Shown here: positions 18,773 to 52,567 of the stretch, piece after piece | Numbering within the stretch: the first letter of the stretch is position 1 | How the letters are laid out: each line of letters starts with the position of its first letter | Assembly: GCA_947629415.1 (NCBI GenBank) | Contig: CANRDP010000003.1 | Coordinates: forward strand, 1 to 58,786 | From: an uncultured Bacilli bacterium | GTDB lineage: Bacteria; Bacillota_I; Bacilli_A; RFN20; CAG-449 | Reading direction: 5' to 3' | DNA: 58,786 nt | Made by a program: the position numbers and the translations under genes | Notes under the pieces: model-generated | The model's database searches: none | The model's input: the letters and a program-made list of their open reading frames with translations, nothing else | What the model was told of the DNA's origin: nothing

Positions 18773-20068
18773 TTAAAATTCTTTTTTTTCATAATTTTTT
18801 CTCAATCCTTTCGGATAGTGATTTTTTGCAATACCCTGGTGAATTTTGGTGATGGCAAAAGGAAGTTTTTTATAAGATAAAATTGCATAACCATCCGGTG
18901 CCTCTAATTTTAATGGATTTCCGGCTAAATACGATTGCATATCTTCCACAGGAATCGGAAGAGAATAGGGTAATATTTTAGAATATCGAGAAATGGCATG
19001 ATCATAGATAAATCCGAGTTTTTTATCATAAGATCCTAAAATTAATCCTTTCCGTATTACTTTTAAATAGGAAATTTCTTCTTGAAAAGAACAAAGGGTA
19101 TATCTTTTTTGATTTTCGTAAACATAGCCGTCAAAAGGAAAGATAAATGATGGCATTGGAATGCTCTTTTGTTTTTTTAAATAATTTCTTTCCTCTTTTA
19201 ATGGTTTTTGTATTAATCCGAAGAAATGCCCTTCACCTTCAAATAAAAAAGGAAAAAGATGAATGGTTCCTTTTAATGTTCCTTCATAAAAAGACGGAGA
19301 ATTGACTAAAGGAATAAGTTCTGCATCTTTTTTTGTAAGAAGATAACGAATCACATCTTCATCTTCTTCTTCCGAAAAAGAACATGTGGAATATAAAAGT
19401 TTTCCTCCCGGAGCAAGAAAATCATAAGCTTTTAGAATCATTTCTTTCTGAATAGAGGCCAATTTTAAGACCTTTTCATAGGACCAATCTTCCTCCATTT
19501 TTTTATCTTTTCGAAACATGGCACTGCCGGAACATGGTGCGTCCAAAAGAATTTTGGTGAAAGTATTTTTATAATTATCGGGGAAAGACAAGAAATCATT
19601 GTTGGTCACGATGATGTTTTTTCGACCATATTTTTCAACTTGTGAAGAAAGCGTAAGTGCTCTTGAATAAGAGCGTTCATTGGATACAATCATTCCTTCG
19701 TTTTGCATTAAAAAGGAGGCATGAAGACTTTTTCCTCCCGGAGCGGCACATGCATCAAGATAAAGATCTTCTTTTGTCGGATGTAAAAAATAATTTGCCA
19801 TCATGGCACAGGGTTCAAAAAGAATATAGGCACCGAGATCAAAAAGATAATGTGCTCCCGGAGTGTTTTGATTTTTTTTATATATAAAAGCATTTTCTAC
19901 AAAAGGATGAGGCTTCAAATATGGAAAAATACTTTTTATTTCCTGCGAGGATATTTTTTCTTGATCGAGATATAAACCTTGTGTCGGTTCTTGAAAACTT
20001 GCTTGGTTCAACAATTCGATTTCTTTTTTGGATAAATAATGGAGATGATTTAAAAAATTTTCTTTCAT
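18773..20068 (-). CDS. rsmF: RsmF-like rRNA (cytosine-C5)-methyltransferase
   Basis: This is a NOL1/NOP2/Sun-family m5C methyltransferase of rRNA. It has SAM motif I DACAAPGGKSLHASFLM, the motif IV DAPCSGSAMFR with the catalytic-cycle Cys, and the motif VI YSTCSFSEEEDEDV with the second Cys. A C-terminal RNA-binding (PUA-like) extension fits the RsmF group: 431 residues with a terminal Gly-Leu-Arg-Lys tail. It is complete and looks active, unlike the RsmB-like protein at 50245. It is divergent from pdp. Confidence 0.88.
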   Translation of the reverse strand: MKENFLNHLHYLSKKEIELLNQASFQEPTQGLYLDQEKISSQEIKSIFPYLKPHPFVENAFIYKKNQNTPGAHYLFDLGAYILFEPCAMMANYFLHPTKEDLYLDACAAPGGKSLHASFLMQNEGMIVSNERSYSRALTLSSQVEKYGRKNIIVTNNDFLSFPDNYKNTFTKILLDAPCSGSAMFRKDKKMEEDWSYEKVLKLASIQKEMILKAYDFLAPGGKLLYSTCSFSEEEDEDVIRYLLTKKDAELIPLVNSPSFYEGTLKGTIHLFPFLFEGEGHFFGLIQKPLKEERNYLKKQKSIPMPSFIFPFDGYVYENQKRYTLCSFQEEISYLKVIRKGLILGSYDKKLGFIYDHAISRYSKILPYSLPIPVEDMQSYLAGNPLKLEAPDGYAILSYKKLPFAITKIHQGIAKNHYPKGLRKNYEKKEF

Positions 20069-39127: not shown

Positions 39128-40405
39128 TTATTTGTCGGATTTTTGCATTAAATCCTCCAAAAAATAAAGTTGATAGAAAAATCCTTCTAACATTTTTACA
39201 GGGATACTATTTCCAGCCATACGGATTATTTTATCTTTAGAGAATAATTTTCCTCTTTTTCCATTCATTATGTTATGCTCTATAAGAGTTTCATAATCTT
39301 TGTCGTTAAAGCCCATAAACAAGAGACATTCACGTGGGGTTAAGTATCTAAAATGACTTTTACCTCTTTTGTTGCAATTATAATAAATATTTCCAGAATT
39401 AGGATGTCGATCTTGCTTGGTGGTAATTGTACGAATAAATTCCTCACTAGTTAAATGACCACTTTCATCGATGATTTTAGGATTTTCGTTCCAAATTCTT
39501 CTTCTAGATGGAGTATCATTTGGCGTGGATTCAAACATCTCATTTTCGTATTTTGTTTCGTTAGTTCGTAATAAATTCTCAATTGTTATTTTTTTATAAT
39601 AGCTTGATTCTTCGTATTTTTTAACAATATATTCTTCATTTTCCCCCCAAGAATTAAAGAATTCTTCAACTTTAGCAGCCAATTTCTTATCATCTCCAAC
39701 ATAAACACTTAACATCAGTAATCTTGGTCTATTTTGTGGAATTCCATAATTTCTAGCATTTACAGGCAAATATTTGCTAATATATCCTAATTCCTTTAAA
39801 TTATTAATCCACTTATTGAAATTATTGATATGTCTTTTTGAAAGTAAAGTTGGGACATTCTCCATGATTAAATAACGTGGAAGAGATTTTCCACATGATT
39901 TCATTTCCGCAAGAATTCTGCCAACTTGCCATAGTAAACTAGATCTGCTTCCCGAGCCTTCTTCTATTCCTTTATTATAGCCGTGAAAAGCACCAACATT
40001 TGATAAATCTTGGCAAGGGAATGAATAAGTAAGTAAATCGGTATCTTTAGGCATATTTCTTCCTTCGATTTTACATATGTCAGTTAAATTTTTTGTTCTT
40101 TTAATGGATGTATATATGCGTTTTAACATCTCATCACTATATCCCTGTAATGTCTTTAACTTCATTGGACTTTTTCCATCACCACTTAAAGTATAATGAC
40201 TTAATTTTTCAAGAATAATTTCTTTAGACATTTTTGAAATCGAAGGCAATATATTTGTCCCTTTATGCATTGCATCATAAGCAACAGATGCATGAATATC
40301 CCATTCACAAGTTGCTTGTACTTTAATTTTAATACCGATATTTTGAAGTGCTCTTGCTTGACTTCCAATACCACTAAAAAATTCGACTATTTTTAATTCT
40401 TTCAT
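39128..40405 (-). CDS. C5-cytosine DNA methyltransferase
   Basis: This enzyme transfers a methyl group from SAM to cytosine in DNA. Motif I is FFSGIGSQARAL (residues 9-20), motif IV has the catalytic Cys in SFPCQDLSNVG (Cys131), motif VI is MENVP (182-184), motif VIII is QNRPR (225-229), and motifs IX-X near the end are RYLTPRECLLFMGF and MAGNSIPVKML. The target-recognition region lies between about 235 and 345. It is the last gene of the operon, 55 bases after the AIPR gene, with no clear ribosome site. It likely protects host DNA from the nuclease of this system. The recognised sequence is unknown. Confidence 0.93.
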   Translation of the reverse strand: MKELKIVEFFSGIGSQARALQNIGIKIKVQATCEWDIHASVAYDAMHKGTNILPSISKMSKEIILEKLSHYTLSGDGKSPMKLKTLQGYSDEMLKRIYTSIKRTKNLTDICKIEGRNMPKDTDLLTYSFPCQDLSNVGAFHGYNKGIEEGSGSRSSLLWQVGRILAEMKSCGKSLPRYLIMENVPTLLSKRHINNFNKWINNLKELGYISKYLPVNARNYGIPQNRPRLLMLSVYVGDDKKLAAKVEEFFNSWGENEEYIVKKYEESSYYKKITIENLLRTNETKYENEMFESTPNDTPSRRRIWNENPKIIDESGHLTSEEFIRTITTKQDRHPNSGNIYYNCNKRGKSHFRYLTPRECLLFMGFNDKDYETLIEHNIMNGKRGKLFSKDKIIRMAGNSIPVKMLEGFFYQLYFLEDLMQKSDK

Positions 40406-40460
40406 AGTTTTGTTTCGATTCTAAAATTACATTATTGAAATTTAATGTGCTTAATAGCGA

Positions 40461-42569
40461 TTAATCAATTAATACGCCAACATCACCTAATTTTTCACGA
40501 ATTTTCCAAATCAATTTGGCCTGTTTAGATGAGGGGAATTTGGGCATTTTTGTATCAAAGGTAGTGGGGATTTGTAATAAACTAATTTCTGTAGGAGATA
40601 ATATTTTTCTTTTTAATCCTTCGTCTAATAAACGTCTCCAATAAGGGGCACCTAAGTTAAATATTTCAGTTTCGATATTTACATCTTTTAAAAGTTTATT
40701 ATCTTTTGTTTCAGAACGGGATTGTTCTTCAATTAGGCTCTTGTTTAATAAGGATTTGCAAAATTCATCAGTAAATTGATATTTTATTTGTTTGTAATTA
40801 ATCCATGTAGCTTCTTTTTTACATTGTTCCATACCATTGCCACCTAGATTTTGAATATATTCGAATGTTATTTGAGCTAACCGTTCGATTTCTGCAACTA
40901 GAGATGGATATAATTTTTGTTTTTTCCAAATTAAGTTATAGTCTAGGCATAATTCATTTGGAATTAAAGAAATTAATTTTGAAATTGTATAAGATACCAC
41001 GCCTGCTTTAACATATGTTTCAGTAATATACCATGAATTTGAAGCATTTTTAACAATTTTATCAGTTTCTTTGAATAAAATGGCATAACATATGCAGTTT
41101 TTAAAGAATTGGTCGTTGATACTTTCTGGTGATTTTTGATATTTTTCATCAATATATTCAGCAAAGAAAGACATACATTTTTCAGAACCTTTACATACTT
41201 GATCAGGTCTTAGTAATTCTGCAGAAACGAAGTATTTAGATAATTCTTCCTTTTTGATTACTTGATTCTTTGGATATTTTTTAGCAAAGTTGTCTTTTTC
41301 GCTCTTTTTTAATAATTTAAATTGTTCTTGTCCATATTGACCTCGTGATCGTTCATAAAACCATAATGTATTATTAATAGAATCTTCTTTCGCAGGTGCT
41401 TGATTCTTTTTTGCTAAAGCTTCAAATGCACGATGGAATGGATGATTAGAGAATAAATCAGAATCTTTTATTTTATTTTGACTATTTGCATATTTTGAAA
41501 TATTTTGAATCATCGTGTCATAATCATCATTTTTAACAACGGTTAATTTCATAGGAACAAAAATGTTATCAAGTGACATTTTATCTTTTAAAGCTGCAGA
41601 AGTTAATGAAGCGGTGGTTTGACCACCATTGATGATTTGTAAATCCGTAATTCTAGTAATTTTATGATTATCGTCGGATAAGGTAATTTCGGATGCGGTA
41701 CAAGCAATCCCATTATTATACGTAAAGAACTTTGTCGGTTCATTTTTAATTGTTAAACGAATTCCTTTATTGATTTTGCCTCGATTGCTTAAAAATGTAC
41801 GAACATTGCCCTCTAATAATCTTGATCCATGTTCAAAATAAATCTTATGAAGCAAATTTCCTGGAACAATTGCTAAATAGGCATCATAATCTAGATTTCC
41901 ACTCATTTCAGCCTTAATACAGGGGATTCCATCAACTCCATATTTATTAGTTTCGATTACAATAGGTTCTCTTTCCCGGCCCGATTGATATAAGTCATAA
42001 AATCTATATAGTGACCAAATATCCATTTCTACTTTTTTATCATGAAAAATTTCAAAAGGAAGAGTTTTAACCCTTTCGCTTAATCTTTTGTTTGTAATTA
42101 TGATGAGTTTTATTCGATCAATTGATTCATTTGATTCTAAATCAACATAATCTATTTTTAATCTTCTTCCAATATCTTTACCTACTAATAAAAGATTATC
42201 AGTTATATCAAAATATTTATCTAATTGGTTATCATAGGCTTCATCCAAAAAATTTATCATTCTTTGCATAATTTGTTTAATTAGAGTCATCGTAATTGTT
42301 TCATTTGTATTGTCTATAAATTCGCTAGAAATTAAAACTAGGGATTTATCGGATTCATCAAAAGCATATGCATCAAAAGACATGATTTTTTGATTTCTAC
42401 ATTTTTTTTGCATTGGAGCAATTTCGGGGTTTACAACTAAACTCATATCAACAAGTCTTTGAATGGTATCGTTTAAAAAATACTCATCAGGAGTGGTTCC
42501 TTCAATTTGAGCATTAATATCAATATCTTCCAAAAATTCTTTTTCAAATTCTTCATATGTTTGATTCAT
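40461..42569 (-). CDS. AIPR (abortive infection phage resistance) family protein
   Basis: A 702-residue protein of the AIPR family. The conserved core is intact: RLLEGNVRTFLSNRGKINKGIRLTI, then FFTYNNGIACTASEI, and the strong LQIINGGQTTASLTSAAL motif (roughly residues 255-335). An N-terminal region has features of a nuclease-like domain (VLISSEFIDN), and the C-terminal third is helical. AIPR proteins are linked to phage defence and in some clusters to restriction, but their activity is not well defined. It begins 3 bases after the PD-(D/E)XK gene. Confidence 0.88.
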   Translation of the reverse strand: MNQTYEEFEKEFLEDIDINAQIEGTTPDEYFLNDTIQRLVDMSLVVNPEIAPMQKKCRNQKIMSFDAYAFDESDKSLVLISSEFIDNTNETITMTLIKQIMQRMINFLDEAYDNQLDKYFDITDNLLLVGKDIGRRLKIDYVDLESNESIDRIKLIIITNKRLSERVKTLPFEIFHDKKVEMDIWSLYRFYDLYQSGREREPIVIETNKYGVDGIPCIKAEMSGNLDYDAYLAIVPGNLLHKIYFEHGSRLLEGNVRTFLSNRGKINKGIRLTIKNEPTKFFTYNNGIACTASEITLSDDNHKITRITDLQIINGGQTTASLTSAALKDKMSLDNIFVPMKLTVVKNDDYDTMIQNISKYANSQNKIKDSDLFSNHPFHRAFEALAKKNQAPAKEDSINNTLWFYERSRGQYGQEQFKLLKKSEKDNFAKKYPKNQVIKKEELSKYFVSAELLRPDQVCKGSEKCMSFFAEYIDEKYQKSPESINDQFFKNCICYAILFKETDKIVKNASNSWYITETYVKAGVVSYTISKLISLIPNELCLDYNLIWKKQKLYPSLVAEIERLAQITFEYIQNLGGNGMEQCKKEATWINYKQIKYQFTDEFCKSLLNKSLIEEQSRSETKDNKLLKDVNIETEIFNLGAPYWRRLLDEGLKRKILSPTEISLLQIPTTFDTKMPKFPSSKQAKLIWKIREKLGDVGVLID

Positions 42570-42572
42570 TTG

Positions 42573-43493
42573 CTAATTCTCCTTATTTTTTTCTATCATA
42601 GATAGGGATAATTCATATTGAACTTTGATTATTTCTTTGGGTAGATCTATCATTTTTATACGTGGGAAATTTTTATCTACTAAATATGAATCTCTTTCAA
42701 CAAAATTATAAACGTAATTGTCATAAATTTCATTATACGAATAACCAACTTGTTTAAGTTTTTCAAAGAATATGTCTTTTTCTATTTCATACTGTAACTC
42801 ATTTGTAATTTCTAAAATAAGATTATTTAGAGTAACTCCATTAAAGCTAGAACTCATTTTTTCAAATTGATACACCACAAGGTGACCATCAAGTTCACTA
42901 TCTAGTTGCTCTAAAGAAGAAATGGTAATAGTATTTTTAAATGTGCTAATTGCTTTTATTTCATACCATTCGTTTTTAATTGAAAAATCCTTATGTGTGG
43001 GTTCTGGTCCACTCCAACCATTTAGACCGTCAGTGATATTATAGTTTTTAAAGATAAATTCTTTTAGAAACATCAACTCACCGATTAGACCAATGACTTC
43101 GTTTTCAGATAAAATTTTTTTATTTCCTGTAAACATCTTTTTCCATTGATTATAGCGATTAATAATTTCCATATAACCATTATCGTTTTCTCCAGTAAAT
43201 TTTTCTGTTTCAGTGATAATATCTTCACAAAAATGATAAAACAGGGAATTATTTTCTTCCGAATTAAAGGAAAATAAAATGGAGTTACCTTGACTTGTTT
43301 TAATTTGTTTGATTTCGATAAAATTAGTGCTTAAAACTTTTGTTGGAACAAAATTCCCATTATATCTTAAAGTTAAATATCCTTTTTCATTTTTGCCTAA
43401 ATATAACTCTAATGGATGGCTTTCACTAACTCTAATATAAGTTGAATTTTGGTTAATAGATTCTAATTTAGCTTTAATATTTTCTAATTCCAT
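42573..43493 (-). CDS. PD-(D/E)XK motif protein (DUF4420)
   Basis: This is a 306-residue protein of the DUF4420 family, a predicted restriction-endonuclease-fold protein. The family pattern is visible: VIGLIGELMFLKEFI (the helix with Glu), then GWSGPEPTHKDFSI and WYEIKAI, giving the D...ExK active site (Asp in HKDF, Glu and Lys in EIK). I choose the ATG at 43493, which has GAGG 9 bases upstream and follows the Z1 stop by one base. It is the best candidate for the DNA-cutting subunit of the cluster. Confidence 0.85.
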   Translation of the reverse strand: MELENIKAKLESINQNSTYIRVSESHPLELYLGKNEKGYLTLRYNGNFVPTKVLSTNFIEIKQIKTSQGNSILFSFNSEENNSLFYHFCEDIITETEKFTGENDNGYMEIINRYNQWKKMFTGNKKILSENEVIGLIGELMFLKEFIFKNYNITDGLNGWSGPEPTHKDFSIKNEWYEIKAISTFKNTITISSLEQLDSELDGHLVVYQFEKMSSSFNGVTLNNLILEITNELQYEIEKDIFFEKLKQVGYSYNEIYDNYVYNFVERDSYLVDKNFPRIKMIDLPKEIIKVQYELSLSMIEKNKEN

Positions 43494-43494
43494 A

Positions 43495-46263
43495 TTATTC
43501 TTCCTCGGACTGATTTTCATGATCTTTATCATAATAATCTACAGTTCTATTCACGGTATATATAATTGATTTTTTTGTTGCATCATTATCTCTTTGTGGA
43601 AATCCAATAGCATATCCAACTAGATATGAATATTTGCGTGTTTTTAATTCATTTAATAAATTAATTATATCTTTTCCTTCATCCAACCAATTTTTATCGG
43701 ACACAAATAATTCTTCATCTATCCCTTTAGGACGTTTAGGATGAATGAAATAAATAATTAATAAGGGATTTCTTCCTTTGATTAAATAGTCTTGTGCTTT
43801 TGTATGAGTTAAAGGAATCTCTTCTTCTTTTATTCCATATTTAGTATCCGACCTACCACCTAGTCTAAGTCTATGTCTACTCATTCTAATGCAGTTTTCA
43901 CGAACATCAAAAATTCTACCAACAAGAGGGATATCGATTTTTAAATTTTCAAATTTAAATTTTTCAGAAGCATCACCTCCGATGACTAAAACATCAAAAA
44001 AAGGTAGGTTTTGCTCCTCTTTTGATAAAAGCCCTTTGATTTGCTCTTGATCAAAATAAGTATTTCCTTCTTTAGGAATGATTACTGAATCGATTAATTC
44101 TTTCACAAATCTAAAAGAGATATTTCTAAAATAGGGATGATTTTTAATGTTATCATCTTTTTGTGAAATATCGATATTATTTAAAAATTCAAACGTTTTT
44201 TCTATATTAAATTCATTTTCATCTAGATTTCTTGTGAGATAGGGCGTTTCAAACAAACTTCCATAAAATGATTTAATGACTGATTTTACTTTTGTGCTTC
44301 TCATTTTATTAGCTGCAGTGATGCCTAAATCAACAGATTCATTTAATACACGAATACCAAATTCTATAGGTTTTTTCTTTTCCTCACTCATAGTTTTAAT
44401 GTCTTGTTTTAATGCCTCGATAGATTCATTAATATATTGATAATAATTATAGGAATCTTCACTAACCCAAATTCTACATAAATCCCCATATCCATCTCGA
44501 TAACCAAACCATCGACCCATTTGCATTAGCACGTCAAAAGTAGAGGTGTTTCGATAAAAATAACTTGTCATTAACCCTTCTAAAGTTAAGCCTCTAGAAA
44601 GTGCTAATCCTCCAACTGCAATTACTCTTAGTCCTTTTTTTGCTTCATTATAATTTAATTTAGATGAATTTCTAGATGAATTTACAACAATGACTTCGAT
44701 TTTAGCTATAGATTCATATAATTGTCCAAAAACTTTCTCCCAAGTAATATCAATATTATCTATATCTAATTGTTTTAAGAAATGCACATTAAAAGTATCT
44801 TGTAAATCCTTAATATTTTGATTAGTTAAAGCTATTTTCATTGGAAGTTTATATGTTTGTTTAACTGATCGTTTGATTTGAACATAATAATCTTTAGCTA
44901 TATCACAAATAACTTCTTGTACTTTAATAAATCTTGACATATTGATTAACATAGAACGATGTGTGTTTTTATTGATATCTCTTAAATCTCTTATAGCATT
45001 AGCAATAAGAAATGTTCGAATTGATTCATAAAAAGAATCAAATAGTTTAGCACCATCCCATTCTTTTCTATGCTTTAAGGGAAAAATTTCATCGTTATAA
45101 TCTTTTATAAAGCGAATGTTATTATTGGATTCAACAAAATATTTTCTAGGTCCACAATAATTGCTTGGTGCATTTAGTGCGAAAATAAAGTCTTTTGGAA
45201 ATAAATCATCCTTTTTCATTTCATCTTCTTCACTATAACTAATGAACACATTAGCAAATGGGGTAGCGGTGAATCCTACATAGCTGCTTTTTGTGAATAA
45301 AGATAATATTTTTCTAATATGTTTATTGATTTTTGTAGGATCCTCATCCTCTTTGTTTGTATTAATCGATGCGTTATCTGCTTCATCATCAATGATTAAT
45401 GCAGGGTAATTAATTGTTTCTTGACCTGGATAAGTGTTAATTCTTTTCAATGATGAATATATTTTTCTTAAAACACTGACATTTTTCTTAAGAATAAAAA
45501 TTAATGGTTCAGAAGAGTAATTACTTAATTTATATGTAGTATTTTGATCATCAGTACTCACAAAATCTTTTCCTCTGCTAGTAAAGGCTTTTGGTGTTTT
45601 TTCACCTCTTCCAACACCAACTTCAACTCCATTTAAACTATCCCAACCAATAAATCCTTCTTCAACTCTTTGTTGAGTCTGTCTTCTTAGGCTTTCAATT
45701 GTTCCAGTTAAAATAAAAATCACTCGATATCCAGCATCTGCGGCTTTTGTTATTAATCCGATGTAGTTGGATGTTTTTCCTGATTGAACATCACCGACAA
45801 CTAAACCTCTTACTGAAAATGTAGCATCTTCATTGGGATTACCTAAATGTGACATCAAAGTGAATAATGTTTTATCTAAAGTGTTAATGACATTATCTGT
45901 AAAATTTGGTTTATTCGTTAAATAATTCTTATATCTCTCCCAATAATAAGGATTAAAATCTTTAGAATTTTTTAAATTTTCATACCATTTGTCATCATGC
46001 TCATAGTCACCTAGAATAATACTTCCTTCTTCTTGATAAACAGAATATAGGGATTTGATTTTATTTAAAAGATAATTCTTTTCCTTTTCATTTAAGACAA
46101 AATTTGGAAGCTCTTGAAAAAATCGATTATGCGATTGCTCTATACAATTTTTAATAAAATCTTCCGTAATTCTAAAATTCGGATTACACATTTGTTGTAC
46201 ATCACATTGTGTTTTAAAATCTTTTATATAAATATCAAAAATTTCATCTTTAGTTTGATTCAT
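43495..46263 (-). CDS. Z1-domain superfamily II helicase/ATPase
   Basis: This 922-residue protein has a helicase core. Walker A is GDVQSGKTSNYIG (residues 157-169), Walker B is IIDDEADNAS (DDEAD at 292-296), and motif III is GFTATPFANV (332-335). After it comes the Z1 domain, with VGGLALSRGLTLEGL, then LMQMGRWFGYRDGYGDLCRIW with the conserved Arg residues. It is long but of normal family size. GGAGA precedes the start; the gene overlaps the ATPase gene upstream by 14 bases. It is expected to move on DNA and act with the nuclease and the GHKL protein. Confidence 0.92.
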   Translation of the reverse strand: MNQTKDEIFDIYIKDFKTQCDVQQMCNPNFRITEDFIKNCIEQSHNRFFQELPNFVLNEKEKNYLLNKIKSLYSVYQEEGSIILGDYEHDDKWYENLKNSKDFNPYYWERYKNYLTNKPNFTDNVINTLDKTLFTLMSHLGNPNEDATFSVRGLVVGDVQSGKTSNYIGLITKAADAGYRVIFILTGTIESLRRQTQQRVEEGFIGWDSLNGVEVGVGRGEKTPKAFTSRGKDFVSTDDQNTTYKLSNYSSEPLIFILKKNVSVLRKIYSSLKRINTYPGQETINYPALIIDDEADNASINTNKEDEDPTKINKHIRKILSLFTKSSYVGFTATPFANVFISYSEEDEMKKDDLFPKDFIFALNAPSNYCGPRKYFVESNNNIRFIKDYNDEIFPLKHRKEWDGAKLFDSFYESIRTFLIANAIRDLRDINKNTHRSMLINMSRFIKVQEVICDIAKDYYVQIKRSVKQTYKLPMKIALTNQNIKDLQDTFNVHFLKQLDIDNIDITWEKVFGQLYESIAKIEVIVVNSSRNSSKLNYNEAKKGLRVIAVGGLALSRGLTLEGLMTSYFYRNTSTFDVLMQMGRWFGYRDGYGDLCRIWVSEDSYNYYQYINESIEALKQDIKTMSEEKKKPIEFGIRVLNESVDLGITAANKMRSTKVKSVIKSFYGSLFETPYLTRNLDENEFNIEKTFEFLNNIDISQKDDNIKNHPYFRNISFRFVKELIDSVIIPKEGNTYFDQEQIKGLLSKEEQNLPFFDVLVIGGDASEKFKFENLKIDIPLVGRIFDVRENCIRMSRHRLRLGGRSDTKYGIKEEEIPLTHTKAQDYLIKGRNPLLIIYFIHPKRPKGIDEELFVSDKNWLDEGKDIINLLNELKTRKYSYLVGYAIGFPQRDNDATKKSIIYTVNRTVDYYDKDHENQSEEE

Positions 46264-47740
46264 AGAGTTTCTCCTTAATTAACGCTAGAATGTTTTCGTT
46301 ATTAAATGGCTCATAAGTTTTTAATAATTCGAATATTTTTTCATCATCAAATTGAAATTTGCGTCTAAAATAGTTAATTTGATTTATTCCTACTATGATG
46401 ATAGAGTCTAAAGCATTTTGTGATTGCTCTAAGTCTATTTTTCTATTACACATTGAATTATAAATATCATTATAGGGAATAGAAGATGAAATAATATCCA
46501 ATAAACGAATTATTTTTGCTTTATCTTTATCTTCAAAATCATTGATAAAATTCTTTACAAAATTAGAATCTGTATTAATAAAAAACATTTCTTTTTGCTC
46601 CCTATTTAGTCTTTTATTCCAAATTTTATTGTCATCCTTTTCTAAATTTAGGCGAGCTCTTTTAGAATTTTTGCTTTCAGATTTAGTTCGTACATCACTT
46701 ACAGCCTTTTTTAAATGTTGTAAAAATGATATTGGAATATTAGCATTTTGTTTTTTAATATCGATACCCCATTCTTCATCTAAGGAATTTGGGATATCTA
46801 CCATTATTCTTCCATATTTATATAGTTCAGAATTTAAGTTTGTAGATGCTAATTTAAACCATGTTCCATAGGTAATTAATCGATTATTTCGGTAGATATA
46901 AAATCCTTGTCCTTTTCTAAAAGAATCTATTCCTCCTAATTTTTCAATGTCTTCGTCGGATAAATCCGTAGTATGGGGAAGAATAACTTGTTGAACTCTA
47001 ATATTTTTACCATTATACTTTATATATTTTTCTTTGAATATATCGCTTTTTGGGTGATTTTCTAAAAAAGGATCCAATCCTTTAACTTTATCTTCATTAA
47101 TATAAATTTTTAGCGGAGAAAAGGGCTTGTTTAAGAATCTATGGAAGACTAATGCGATATGATGTTCCATATTTTCTACTTCTTCTTGAAGTGCTGGAAT
47201 AATAAGTCCGTCCTTCTTTTTGCTGATAATATCAAATTCTTGCCAAATAACTAAAGTTCCACTTTTTAAATCATTTAGCATATCAATTTTAGGTAATTTT
47301 TTGATTTCATCTTCGTCTAATTCTAGACAACACCAACTTTTTTCTTTTGTAGCGTAATCTAAGTCCCACATTAAAACAGAAATTATTTCATTCTTTTTTG
47401 ATGCTACAATTAATTTTCTGCATTGAGATAGGGAAGCGGATTTTAAACCAAGTCCAAATCTTCCTAAATCTTCGCTATTATATTCTTTTTTTGATCCATA
47501 TTTCATTGCATTTATTAATTCATCACGATTCATACCATCCCCATTATCAAAAAAAACAACGCTTATATCGTTAGGATTAATGGGTGTAAATATTTTTATT
47601 TCTGTTGCATGCGCAGAAATGGAATTATCAATAATATCTGCGGCCGCGGTTTCAAAACTATACCCAATAGAACGCATTGAATTCATCAAAATGCTAGGTT
47701 CTGGATTGTTTAAAATTCTTCTTACCATATCCTTCTCCAT
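46250..47740 (-). CDS. GHKL (MORC/MutL-like) ATPase of the defence operon
   Basis: A 496-residue protein with an N-terminal GHKL ATPase fold: the N-box AADIIDNSISA (about residue 35), the G1 motif FFDNGDGM (about 64-71) and G2 motif LGRFGLGLKSAS (about 93-104). A second S5-like domain and a helical C-terminus follow. This resembles prokaryotic MORC-type proteins that cluster with Z1 helicases and methylases. AAGGT lies 6 bases before the ATG at 47740; starts at 47755 and 47725 are possible. It is first in the operon. It may serve as a DNA-clamping ATPase. Confidence 0.85.
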   Translation of the reverse strand: MEKDMVRRILNNPEPSILMNSMRSIGYSFETAAADIIDNSISAHATEIKIFTPINPNDISVVFFDNGDGMNRDELINAMKYGSKKEYNSEDLGRFGLGLKSASLSQCRKLIVASKKNEIISVLMWDLDYATKEKSWCCLELDEDEIKKLPKIDMLNDLKSGTLVIWQEFDIISKKKDGLIIPALQEEVENMEHHIALVFHRFLNKPFSPLKIYINEDKVKGLDPFLENHPKSDIFKEKYIKYNGKNIRVQQVILPHTTDLSDEDIEKLGGIDSFRKGQGFYIYRNNRLITYGTWFKLASTNLNSELYKYGRIMVDIPNSLDEEWGIDIKKQNANIPISFLQHLKKAVSDVRTKSESKNSKRARLNLEKDDNKIWNKRLNREQKEMFFINTDSNFVKNFINDFEDKDKAKIIRLLDIISSSIPYNDIYNSMCNRKIDLEQSQNALDSIIIVGINQINYFRRKFQFDDEKIFELLKTYEPFNNENILALIKEKLYESN

Positions 47741-47801
47741 ATGAGTACCTTGCATATTTTCAAAAGAAAAACTTGTACTTCACTAATAGAAATGTAACAC
47801 A

Positions 47802-50244: not shown

Positions 50245-51528
50245 ATGGCTATACTTGAACAAGCTTATGGTTATTTAAGCCGAATCATGAGTAAAGAGGA
50301 AACTTTCGTAACGATTATGAATCGTTCCATTCCCAATGCGGGTTTATCCTCAGAAGATACGACACTTCTTCGAGATGTATTGAAATCCGCGGTAAACAAG
50401 TATTATTTTTTACGATTTGAAGTTCGGAAAGGTGCCCAGGAAATCGAATTGGAATCCGAAGAAACCAATGTTTTGATTTTGGGTCTTGCCTTTATTCATT
50501 ATGTGAAAAATGTCGATTTTGATTTGGTGATGAAATTCTTTGAAGAAGAATATGGTTCTTTACCTTTACGAATTTCTTTAGATCAGATCAAACAAATTTA
50601 TTCAACTATTGGAGATCATCCTATGGATTTGCCAAGTCGTGTGGAGGAGGTAATTTCCAAAAAAGTATCGCTCAAATATTCTTATCCGGAGTGGATTGTC
50701 AAAATGATGTTTAAACATTTCGGCGTAAAGAATACTTTTCGCAGCGCGGCATCTTCTCGTCATGGTATGCCGATTGTAATTAATACAAATGATATGAAAT
50801 TAAAAAATGAAGAGTTGGATGAAACTTTATATAGCAAAACAAAATTTTCTTCAAGAGCATATAATTATCTCGGAAAAGAAAAAATTATTCAGCAATCTTT
50901 ATTTAAATCCAATAAAATTTTTGTGGAAGATGAAGCAGAACAAATGCTCATCAATCTATTAGATCCCCAGCAAGGAGAAAATCTCTTGTGCATTGATGAC
51001 AGCCGTGGAATTATGGCTCTAGATGCTTGTTTGCGGATGAATGATATGGGAAAAGTAAATGCGGCATGTAGTGATTTGATTGCTTTAGAAGCGGCGAAGA
51101 ATTTAACAAGACGTTTCGGAGTCAAATCGGTTGCACCTTTTGAATCCAATGCCAAATTACTGATTACTCATGTTGAGCCGAATACTATGGATAAGGTTCT
51201 AGTCGTTCCGAAATCTTCCGAGATCGGTTTAGTAAGAAAACATCCGGATGTATTATTGACTTTAAAACGCGGGGATTTAGATGGAATTATTGAAGAAGAA
51301 GTACAATATCTTGAGGAAGCAAAACAATTTGTTAAACCGGAGGGAATACTTTTATATTCTGTTTTCACTTTGAATAAAAAAGAATCCGAAAATATTATTC
51401 ATGAATTTTTGGAAAAGAATCAAAACTTTGAACTGATCGAAGAAAAACAAATTTTTCCCTTTGAAGGACCTACCGATGGTTTCTATTATGCAAAAATGAA
51501 AAAAACTGAAGAAAAAAATGAAAACTAA
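50245..51528 (+). CDS. RsmB-like protein lacking catalytic motifs (probable pseudoenzyme)
   Basis: This 427-residue protein has the RsmB architecture: an N-terminal NusB-like helical domain (about 1-140), the linker SLKYSYPEWIVKMMFKHFG, and a Rossmann-type C-terminal domain ending with FPFEGPTDGFYYAKMKK. In true RsmB motif I is DxCAAPGGK, motif IV DAPCSG, and motif VI YSTCS. Here the same positions read CIDDSRGIMAL (249-259), VPKSSEIG (321-328) and YSVFT (371-375), so both catalytic Cys and the SAM-binding glycines are gone. It sits just before rlmN with an 11-base overlap, where rsmB normally sits. It may act as an RNA-binding assembly factor rather than a methyltransferase. Confidence 0.8.
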   Translation: MAILEQAYGYLSRIMSKEETFVTIMNRSIPNAGLSSEDTTLLRDVLKSAVNKYYFLRFEVRKGAQEIELESEETNVLILGLAFIHYVKNVDFDLVMKFFEEEYGSLPLRISLDQIKQIYSTIGDHPMDLPSRVEEVISKKVSLKYSYPEWIVKMMFKHFGVKNTFRSAASSRHGMPIVINTNDMKLKNEELDETLYSKTKFSSRAYNYLGKEKIIQQSLFKSNKIFVEDEAEQMLINLLDPQQGENLLCIDDSRGIMALDACLRMNDMGKVNAACSDLIALEAAKNLTRRFGVKSVAPFESNAKLLITHVEPNTMDKVLVVPKSSEIGLVRKHPDVLLTLKRGDLDGIIEEEVQYLEEAKQFVKPEGILLYSVFTLNKKESENIIHEFLEKNQNFELIEEKQIFPFEGPTDGFYYAKMKKTEEKNEN

Positions 51529-52567
51529 CCTTTATGGCAAAACATTGATTCAACTGGAACAAGAGATGATACAAGAAGGACAAAAGTCCTATCGTGCCAA
51601 GCAACTTTTTACTTGGATTTATGAAAAAGAAGCAAAATCGTTTGATGAAATGACGGATGTTTCTCTTTCTTTTCGTCTTGTTTTGAAAGAAAAATATTGC
51701 CTTGAGAAACCGAAAATTTTTTTGGAACAAAATTCCAATGATGGTACGAAAAAACTTTTACTTGAAATGAGTGACGGGGCAAAAGTGGAAACGGTTTTAA
51801 TGCGATATAATTACGGAAATGTTGCTTGTGTTTCCAGTCAAGTCGGTTGTAACATGTCTTGTACGTTTTGTGCTTCCGGGCTTTTGAAAAAAGTACGTAA
51901 TTTAAAAATCGAAGAAATGGTCGGACAAATTCTTGTTTTAAATGATCTTTTAAAAGAAGAAGGAAAAGCGGAAAAAATCACACATGTGGTTGTGATGGGG
52001 ACCGGTGAACCATTTGATAATTATGAAAATGTGATTTCTTTTATCCGTATTATCAATGATCAGAAAGCATTGGCCATCGGAGCACGACATATCACGGTTT
52101 CTACCTGTGGTATTCCCGAAAAAATCCGACAATACGGAAAAGAAGGTTTGCAAGTTAATTTAGCTATTTCTTTACATGCCCCAAATGATGAACTCCGTTC
52201 CAAACTGATGCCCATCAATCGTGCTTATCCTTTAAAAGAGTTGATTGCCGCGGTAAAAGATTATATTCAAAATTCCGGTCGTCGGGTGACATATGAATAC
52301 ATTTTATTGAAAAATGTAAATGATTCGATGCAAGATGCGGATGAATTGACAAAACTTATTGCTCCTACCTTTGCCTATGTCAATTTGATTCCTTATAATG
52401 AAGTAAAAGAAAATTCTTTTAAAAGAGCAGAGGATAAAAGTGTAAAGGCATTTATGGATCGATTGGTGAAAAACGGAGTAAATGTAACGATTCGCAAAGA
52501 ATTCGGCAGTGATATTGATGCCGCGTGCGGTCAATTGAGAGCAAAAAGTGAAGGAATATGCAAATGA
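51518..52567 (+). CDS. rlmN: Dual-specificity RNA methyltransferase RlmN
   Basis: RlmN is a radical SAM enzyme that methylates C2 of A2503 in 23S rRNA and A37 in some tRNAs. The radical SAM cluster CxxxCxxC is Cys111, Cys115, Cys118. GGTGEPFDNYENV and the methyl-carrying Cys337 (DAACGQL) near the C-terminus are intact. The 349-residue length is typical. It overlaps the RsmB-like gene by 11 bases and the phosphatase gene by 4. Confidence 0.96.
   Translation: MKTNLYGKTLIQLEQEMIQEGQKSYRAKQLFTWIYEKEAKSFDEMTDVSLSFRLVLKEKYCLEKPKIFLEQNSNDGTKKLLLEMSDGAKVETVLMRYNYGNVACVSSQVGCNMSCTFCASGLLKKVRNLKIEEMVGQILVLNDLLKEEGKAEKITHVVVMGTGEPFDNYENVISFIRIINDQKALAIGARHITVSTCGIPEKIRQYGKEGLQVNLAISLHAPNDELRSKLMPINRAYPLKELIAAVKDYIQNSGRRVTYEYILLKNVNDSMQDADELTKLIAPTFAYVNLIPYNEVKENSFKRAEDKSVKAFMDRLVKNGVNVTIRKEFGSDIDAACGQLRAKSEGICK

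Follow-up and report, generated by a model that had tools for sequence, protein, structure and literature searches.

The window, by which we mean the whole stretch of 58,786 nucleotides analysed here from an uncultured Bacilli bacterium, carries an RsmB-like gene directly upstream of rlmN, which is the arrangement usual for rsmB in Bacilli and Clostridia (Table 1). In most bacteria the product of rsmB is an enzyme that methylates ribosomal RNA. The reading frame of the gene in the window runs from ATG to TAA with no internal stops, a plausible ribosome-binding site (GAGGTGA) is located a few bases 5′ of the ATG, and adjacency to rlmN was present in every relative of the order for which the fetched stretch was long enough. 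Just upstream of the gene lies a defence-like island (39128-47755, minus strand), with matches to MzaB and MzaC, a C5 cytosine DNA methyltransferase-like ORF and two further ORFs inside it. An intact gene for an RsmF-like enzyme is present separately in the window, as had been reported in an earlier note on this DNA. Four members of genus g4 in the window's own family (L018, L025, L026 and L027) encode, besides the RsmF-like protein and the degenerate RsmB relative described below, an extra short PF01189 protein of approximately 306-313 amino acids with a strong match, which could in principle take over an m5C site.

Table 1. Features of the window and their positions, numbered from its first nucleotide.
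Feature	Position	Strand	Remarks
RsmF-like m5C methyltransferase, separate gene	18773-20068	-	intact; PF01189 141.7 bits; DACAAPGGK, DAPCSG, STCS
C5 cytosine DNA methyltransferase-like ORF	39128-40405	-	defence-like island
MzaC match	43498-46263	-	defence-like island
MzaB match	46253-47755	-	defence-like island
Putative RsmB-derived pseudoenzyme	50245-51528	+	intact frame, 427 aa; degenerate in all sampled f1, f2 and f4 members
N-terminal helical domain (approximately residues 1-140)	50245-50664	+	diverged counterpart of the RsmB NusB-like domain
SAM motif I site, now LLCIDDSRGIMA (residues 247-258)	50983-51018	+	placed by alignment
Motif IV site and flank, now VPKSSEIGLVRKHPD (residues 321-335)	51205-51249	+	Asp and Cys lost; GLVRKxPD kept
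Motif VI site, now YSVFTLNKKE (residues 371-380)	51355-51384	+	Phe374 in place of the catalytic Cys; Glu380 retained
rlmN	51518-52567	+	shares 11 nt with the 3′ end of the RsmB-like gene

Judged from sequence comparison, the homology of the encoded protein to RsmB is certain. NCBIfam PRK14902 was matched over residues 6-421 with 138 bits (E 3e-40), which lies below the family cut-off of 319, and TIGR00563 with 93.5 bits, likewise below its cut-off of 269, while Pfam PF01189 (RsmB/F) gave 52.5 bits, above the Pfam cut-off of 27, over residues 265-418 only. RsmB models scored far higher than RsmF models (138 versus 44 and 38 bits), and the solved structures with the closest sequences were RsmB/Fmu-type enzymes. 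The candidate assignment as an RsmF-like m5C enzyme was rejected, as the RsmF scores were far lower and an intact gene for such an enzyme is found elsewhere in the window. Both RsmB domains were matched by profile comparison, and a structure model of modest confidence built from six sequences (pLDDT 57, pTM 0.50) had its best Foldseek matches in E. coli RsmB 1sqf and in 2yxl, which supports the fold only. Among plasmid sequences only ordinary, distant RsmB was matched. The open, full-length frame, the two-domain plan and the RsmB position next to rlmN described in the earlier note were all borne out by these results. On the grounds of homology, gene place and the trees presented below, the protein is judged to be an RsmB orthologue by descent; it is not to be filed as an RsmB enzyme, because defining features of the enzyme were tested for and were not found in it.

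Alignment with intact RsmB established that the catalytic and SAM-binding residues have been replaced. Motif I, which is DACAAPGGK in intact RsmB, reads CIDDSRGIM in the window protein, with C249, R254 and M257 in place of the Asp, Pro and Lys, while LVDAPCSGFGVIRRKPD has become LVVPKSSEIGLVRKHPD and VYSTCT has become LYSVFT. The position of the motif IV Asp is occupied by V321 and the Asp positions of the SAM site (motifs II and III) by C275 and N302. The two catalytic cysteines have given way to S324 (motif IV) and F374 (the nucleophile of motif VI), just as the earlier note had it, and the only cysteines of the protein, at positions 249, 262 and 275, are not near motif IV or VI. Within the window's family (f1) the Asp, Pro and Lys of motif I and the Asp of motif II were retained in 0 of 17 sequences. 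The wider claim that all methyltransferase motifs had been lost holds for motifs I, IV and VI and for the Asp of motifs II and III; it goes too far for one motif I glycine (G255), the G-x-x-R-x-x-P-D strip that follows motif IV, and Glu380 behind motif VI, all of which are still present, as are Gly367, Tyr371 and the C-terminal strand pair. The conserved positions (P148, N182, Y208, P334, G367, E380, F388, P405, Y414 and A416) are mostly common to intact RsmB, and the best conserved region is the C-terminal part from residue 325 to 416. Misplacement of the motifs, a refutation set beforehand in the earlier note, was checked for with alignments of different taxon sets and rejected, the placement against intact relatives being unambiguous, and the motif loss was not refuted.

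The distribution of the gene was determined in f1, in two further families of the same order (f2 and f4) and in the others (f3 and f5 to f8). It is carried by 17 of 18 genomes of f1 and by all 23 of f2, while in f4 a match at E <= 1e-20 was obtained in 200 of 224 genomes, nearly all of the matches listed being full length, and some f4 genera gave no clear RsmB-like match. Motifs were counted in 87 rows from 86 genomes of f1, f2 and f4 (G262 having been entered twice), and the homologue was degenerate in all 86 of these sampled genomes. The Asp of motif IV, the Cys of motif VI and the Asp and Lys of motif I were each found in 0 of 87 rows; a count of four key residues gave none kept in 66 rows and one kept in 21. 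These residues are kept in all 15 intact relatives, comprising nine sequences from f3, f6, f7 and f8 and six outgroup sequences, and motifs I, IV and VI are intact in 40 of 40 sequences that represent other orders within the class. Degeneracy in f4 was read in 46 genomes and would extend to the rest of the 200 matches by extrapolation only, because the search profile also matches intact RsmB. The alignment of relatives that the earlier note had called for therefore finds the degenerate motifs conserved throughout the sampled clade. Seven f4 members (L061, L065, L125, L126, L155, L156 and L179) retain the Cys of motif IV (CSKFDLIRSLPD and similar sequences) and have lost the Asp and the motif VI Cys. 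Some f2 relatives, too, have a Cys in motif IV or close to it, and in both families this residue may be a leftover of stepwise decay. Family f5 (G269-G272; L121-L123) yielded no homologue of RsmB, whether intact or degenerate, and seems to have lost rsmB; an RsmF-like match was obtained in three of its four genomes. One f4 genome that is 99% complete (G086; L129) has the degenerate gene and no strong match to RsmD, the m2G966 enzyme, so that both helix-31 methylations may be missing there.

In the RsmB tree one branch, with a support of 100, splits all degenerate from all intact forms, a split which attraction among fast-evolving rows could help to produce. In the RlmN tree f1, f2 and f4 come together, the single f6 sequence alone being unresolved among them, and a topology that makes one clade of these three families is not rejected by the RlmN data (p-AU 0.70). 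As the two trees fit, a single loss represents the simplest history. The dN/dS values of 17 close pairs of degenerate genes were approximately 0.03-0.4 (highest 0.41), mostly below 0.2 and with a median near 0.07, and are thereby in the range of those of three intact RsmB pairs (0.07-0.15); the values for RlmN were lower in most pairs. Such low ratios point to a selected protein and not a pseudogene, in agreement with the view of the earlier note that the frame is maintained and is not randomly decaying. Loss of methyltransferase activity is to be expected because the known chemistry of RsmB needs residues that are lost here, and the product of the gene is very probably a pseudoenzyme throughout the clade. 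The loss of the catalytic machinery in a protein that is under selection nonetheless suggests that the protein has a job other than methylation.

The N-terminal domain of RsmB is presumed to be its RNA-recognition part. Profile comparison relates the f1 domain to the N-domains of intact RsmB (E 8e-7; range 8e-7 to 6e-12), while Pfam NusB (PF01029), which matches the intact RsmB of f3, f6, f7 and f8, gave no match in the window protein. The Asn of the FVNGILR signature is kept in 3 of 87 rows of f1, f2 and f4, and the mean net charge of the domain is -2.0 in the degenerate forms as compared to +4.4 in intact forms from within the order and +4.0 in those from other orders. These sequences are related to one another, by which the p-values of the charge comparison are inflated in significance; for RlmN of the same loci the charge differences were much smaller. 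Loss of the domain signature, of the Asn and of the basic charge makes it less likely that the old 16S site is bound as it is by RsmB. Binding of 16S rRNA, as suggested in the earlier note, is possible but draws no support from the domain that would be expected to contact RNA. A role as a substitute for NusB was rejected, as a separate nusB frame of 148 amino acids is present.

The reading that we favour, with a probability of roughly 0.45, is that the protein acts in a methylation-independent step of ribosome assembly. A vertically inherited rsmB has lost its SAM-binding and catalytic residues, most simply once, in the ancestor of f1, f2 and f4, and the full-length protein, expected to be non-catalytic, has been kept ever since. 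Through its preserved C-terminal part it would dock either to the early 30S particle or to a partner in assembly and then act as a chaperone or checkpoint in ribosome assembly, C967 being left unmethylated or handled by another enzyme. An assembly role is favoured because the E. coli enzyme targets an early 30S intermediate, with the 17S precursor accumulating in the absence of rsmB (PMC7056703), and because NOP2 and NSUN4 have assembly roles that are independent of methylation. More tentative is the full form of this proposal, namely that an rRNA methyltransferase was turned once, clade-wide, into a factor of purely structural kind which would serve the assembly or quality control of ribosomes at the pre-30S particle and leave that particle unmethylated, much as NOP2 does in its non-catalytic role in eukaryotes. 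Against an assembly role stand the losses in the N-terminal domain and the absence of an RsmB homologue from f5, and of a clear match from some f4 genera, by which the role would be dispensable in parts of the order. The 16S helix-31 pattern had no match in 279 genomes of the order, and their rRNA genes therefore seem to be masked or unassembled.

The main and close rival, to which we assign a lesser, still considerable chance, is that of a neofunctionalised protein-protein adaptor or regulatory partner, whose dead Rossmann fold would bind another protein, either a further methyltransferase (RsmD, for example) or a protein with no link to ribosomes, and which would no longer recognise rRNA. 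Dead subunits that are paired with active methyltransferases are known in general and provide a precedent, and the joint loss of the catalytic pocket, the N-terminal signature and the net positive charge is consistent with such a function, as is the concentration of conservation in the C-terminal part. The candidate partners speak against it: RsmF was rejected as an obligate partner since the paralogue gave no strong match in several nearly complete carriers (G056, G069, G131, G261 and G262), the gene is carried by G086 despite the lack of a strong RsmD match there, and rlmN is the ancestral neighbour.

The remaining explanations have far less weight. It is improbable that translational coupling to rlmN, which the gene overlaps, is the main reason for keeping the frame, with the protein itself of little weight, even though in almost all relatives checked the gene overlaps rlmN or stops just short of it; coupling would keep an open frame and not an amino-acid sequence, and alone is therefore insufficient for a protein with dN/dS well below 1 and conserved residues across its whole length. 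Very unlikely, too, is a protein that retains methyltransferase activity through catalytic residues which have moved and so escaped the alignment. The Cys in or close to motif IV in some f4 and f2 relatives would speak for this, whereas none of the three cysteines of the window protein is near motif IV or VI, no row has the Asp of motif IV or the Cys of motif VI, and the Asp positions of the SAM site are lost. Least probable of all is a decaying pseudogene that is as yet unbroken: full-length frames in three families with dN/dS near 0.07 are unlike drift, notwithstanding protein-level evolution that is faster than that of RlmN in most pairs.

Methylation-independent assembly, the reading preferred here, may be set beside known members of the superfamily. 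RsmB itself (Fmu/Sun; PDB 1sqf/1sqg), the 16S rRNA m5C967 methyltransferase, resembles the window protein in its rlmN adjacency, its two domains and homology over the whole length, whereas the window protein is without the SAM motifs, the motif IV Asp and Cys and the motif VI Cys, and has lost the signature and charge of the N-domain. Eukaryotic NOP2/NSUN1, which belongs to the same superfamily, has a role in biogenesis without catalysis, as its catalytically dead form rescues rRNA processing (PMC9561284); it represents a functional parallel only if the proposed assembly role is right, and differs in being an active enzyme that also methylates, while in the window clade the catalytic residues are lost throughout. 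Mitochondrial NSUN4, also of this superfamily, forms a complex with MTERF4 and in it serves assembly separately from its methylation (PMC3916286), yet it differs from the putative pseudoenzyme in being an active enzyme with a known partner. Some subgroups of the Mollicutes have lost rsmB (PMC4014445), which indicates that related bacteria can do without m5C967; those subgroups no longer have the gene, whereas the window clade keeps it in a form stripped of the catalytic residues. What is unusual in this clade is that the gene persists without the chemistry, and no description of an RsmB pseudoenzyme was found in the open-access literature searched, which is no proof of absence elsewhere.

The clade comprises approximately 240 species, from which 86 genomes were read. 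As these proteins pass the Pfam RsmB/F cut-off they could be labelled as active m5C967 methyltransferases in annotation. It has long been asked whether cells keep rRNA methyltransferases because of the methyl group or because of the binding itself, and a clade in which the chemistry seems to have been removed and the protein kept represents a natural separation-of-function experiment.
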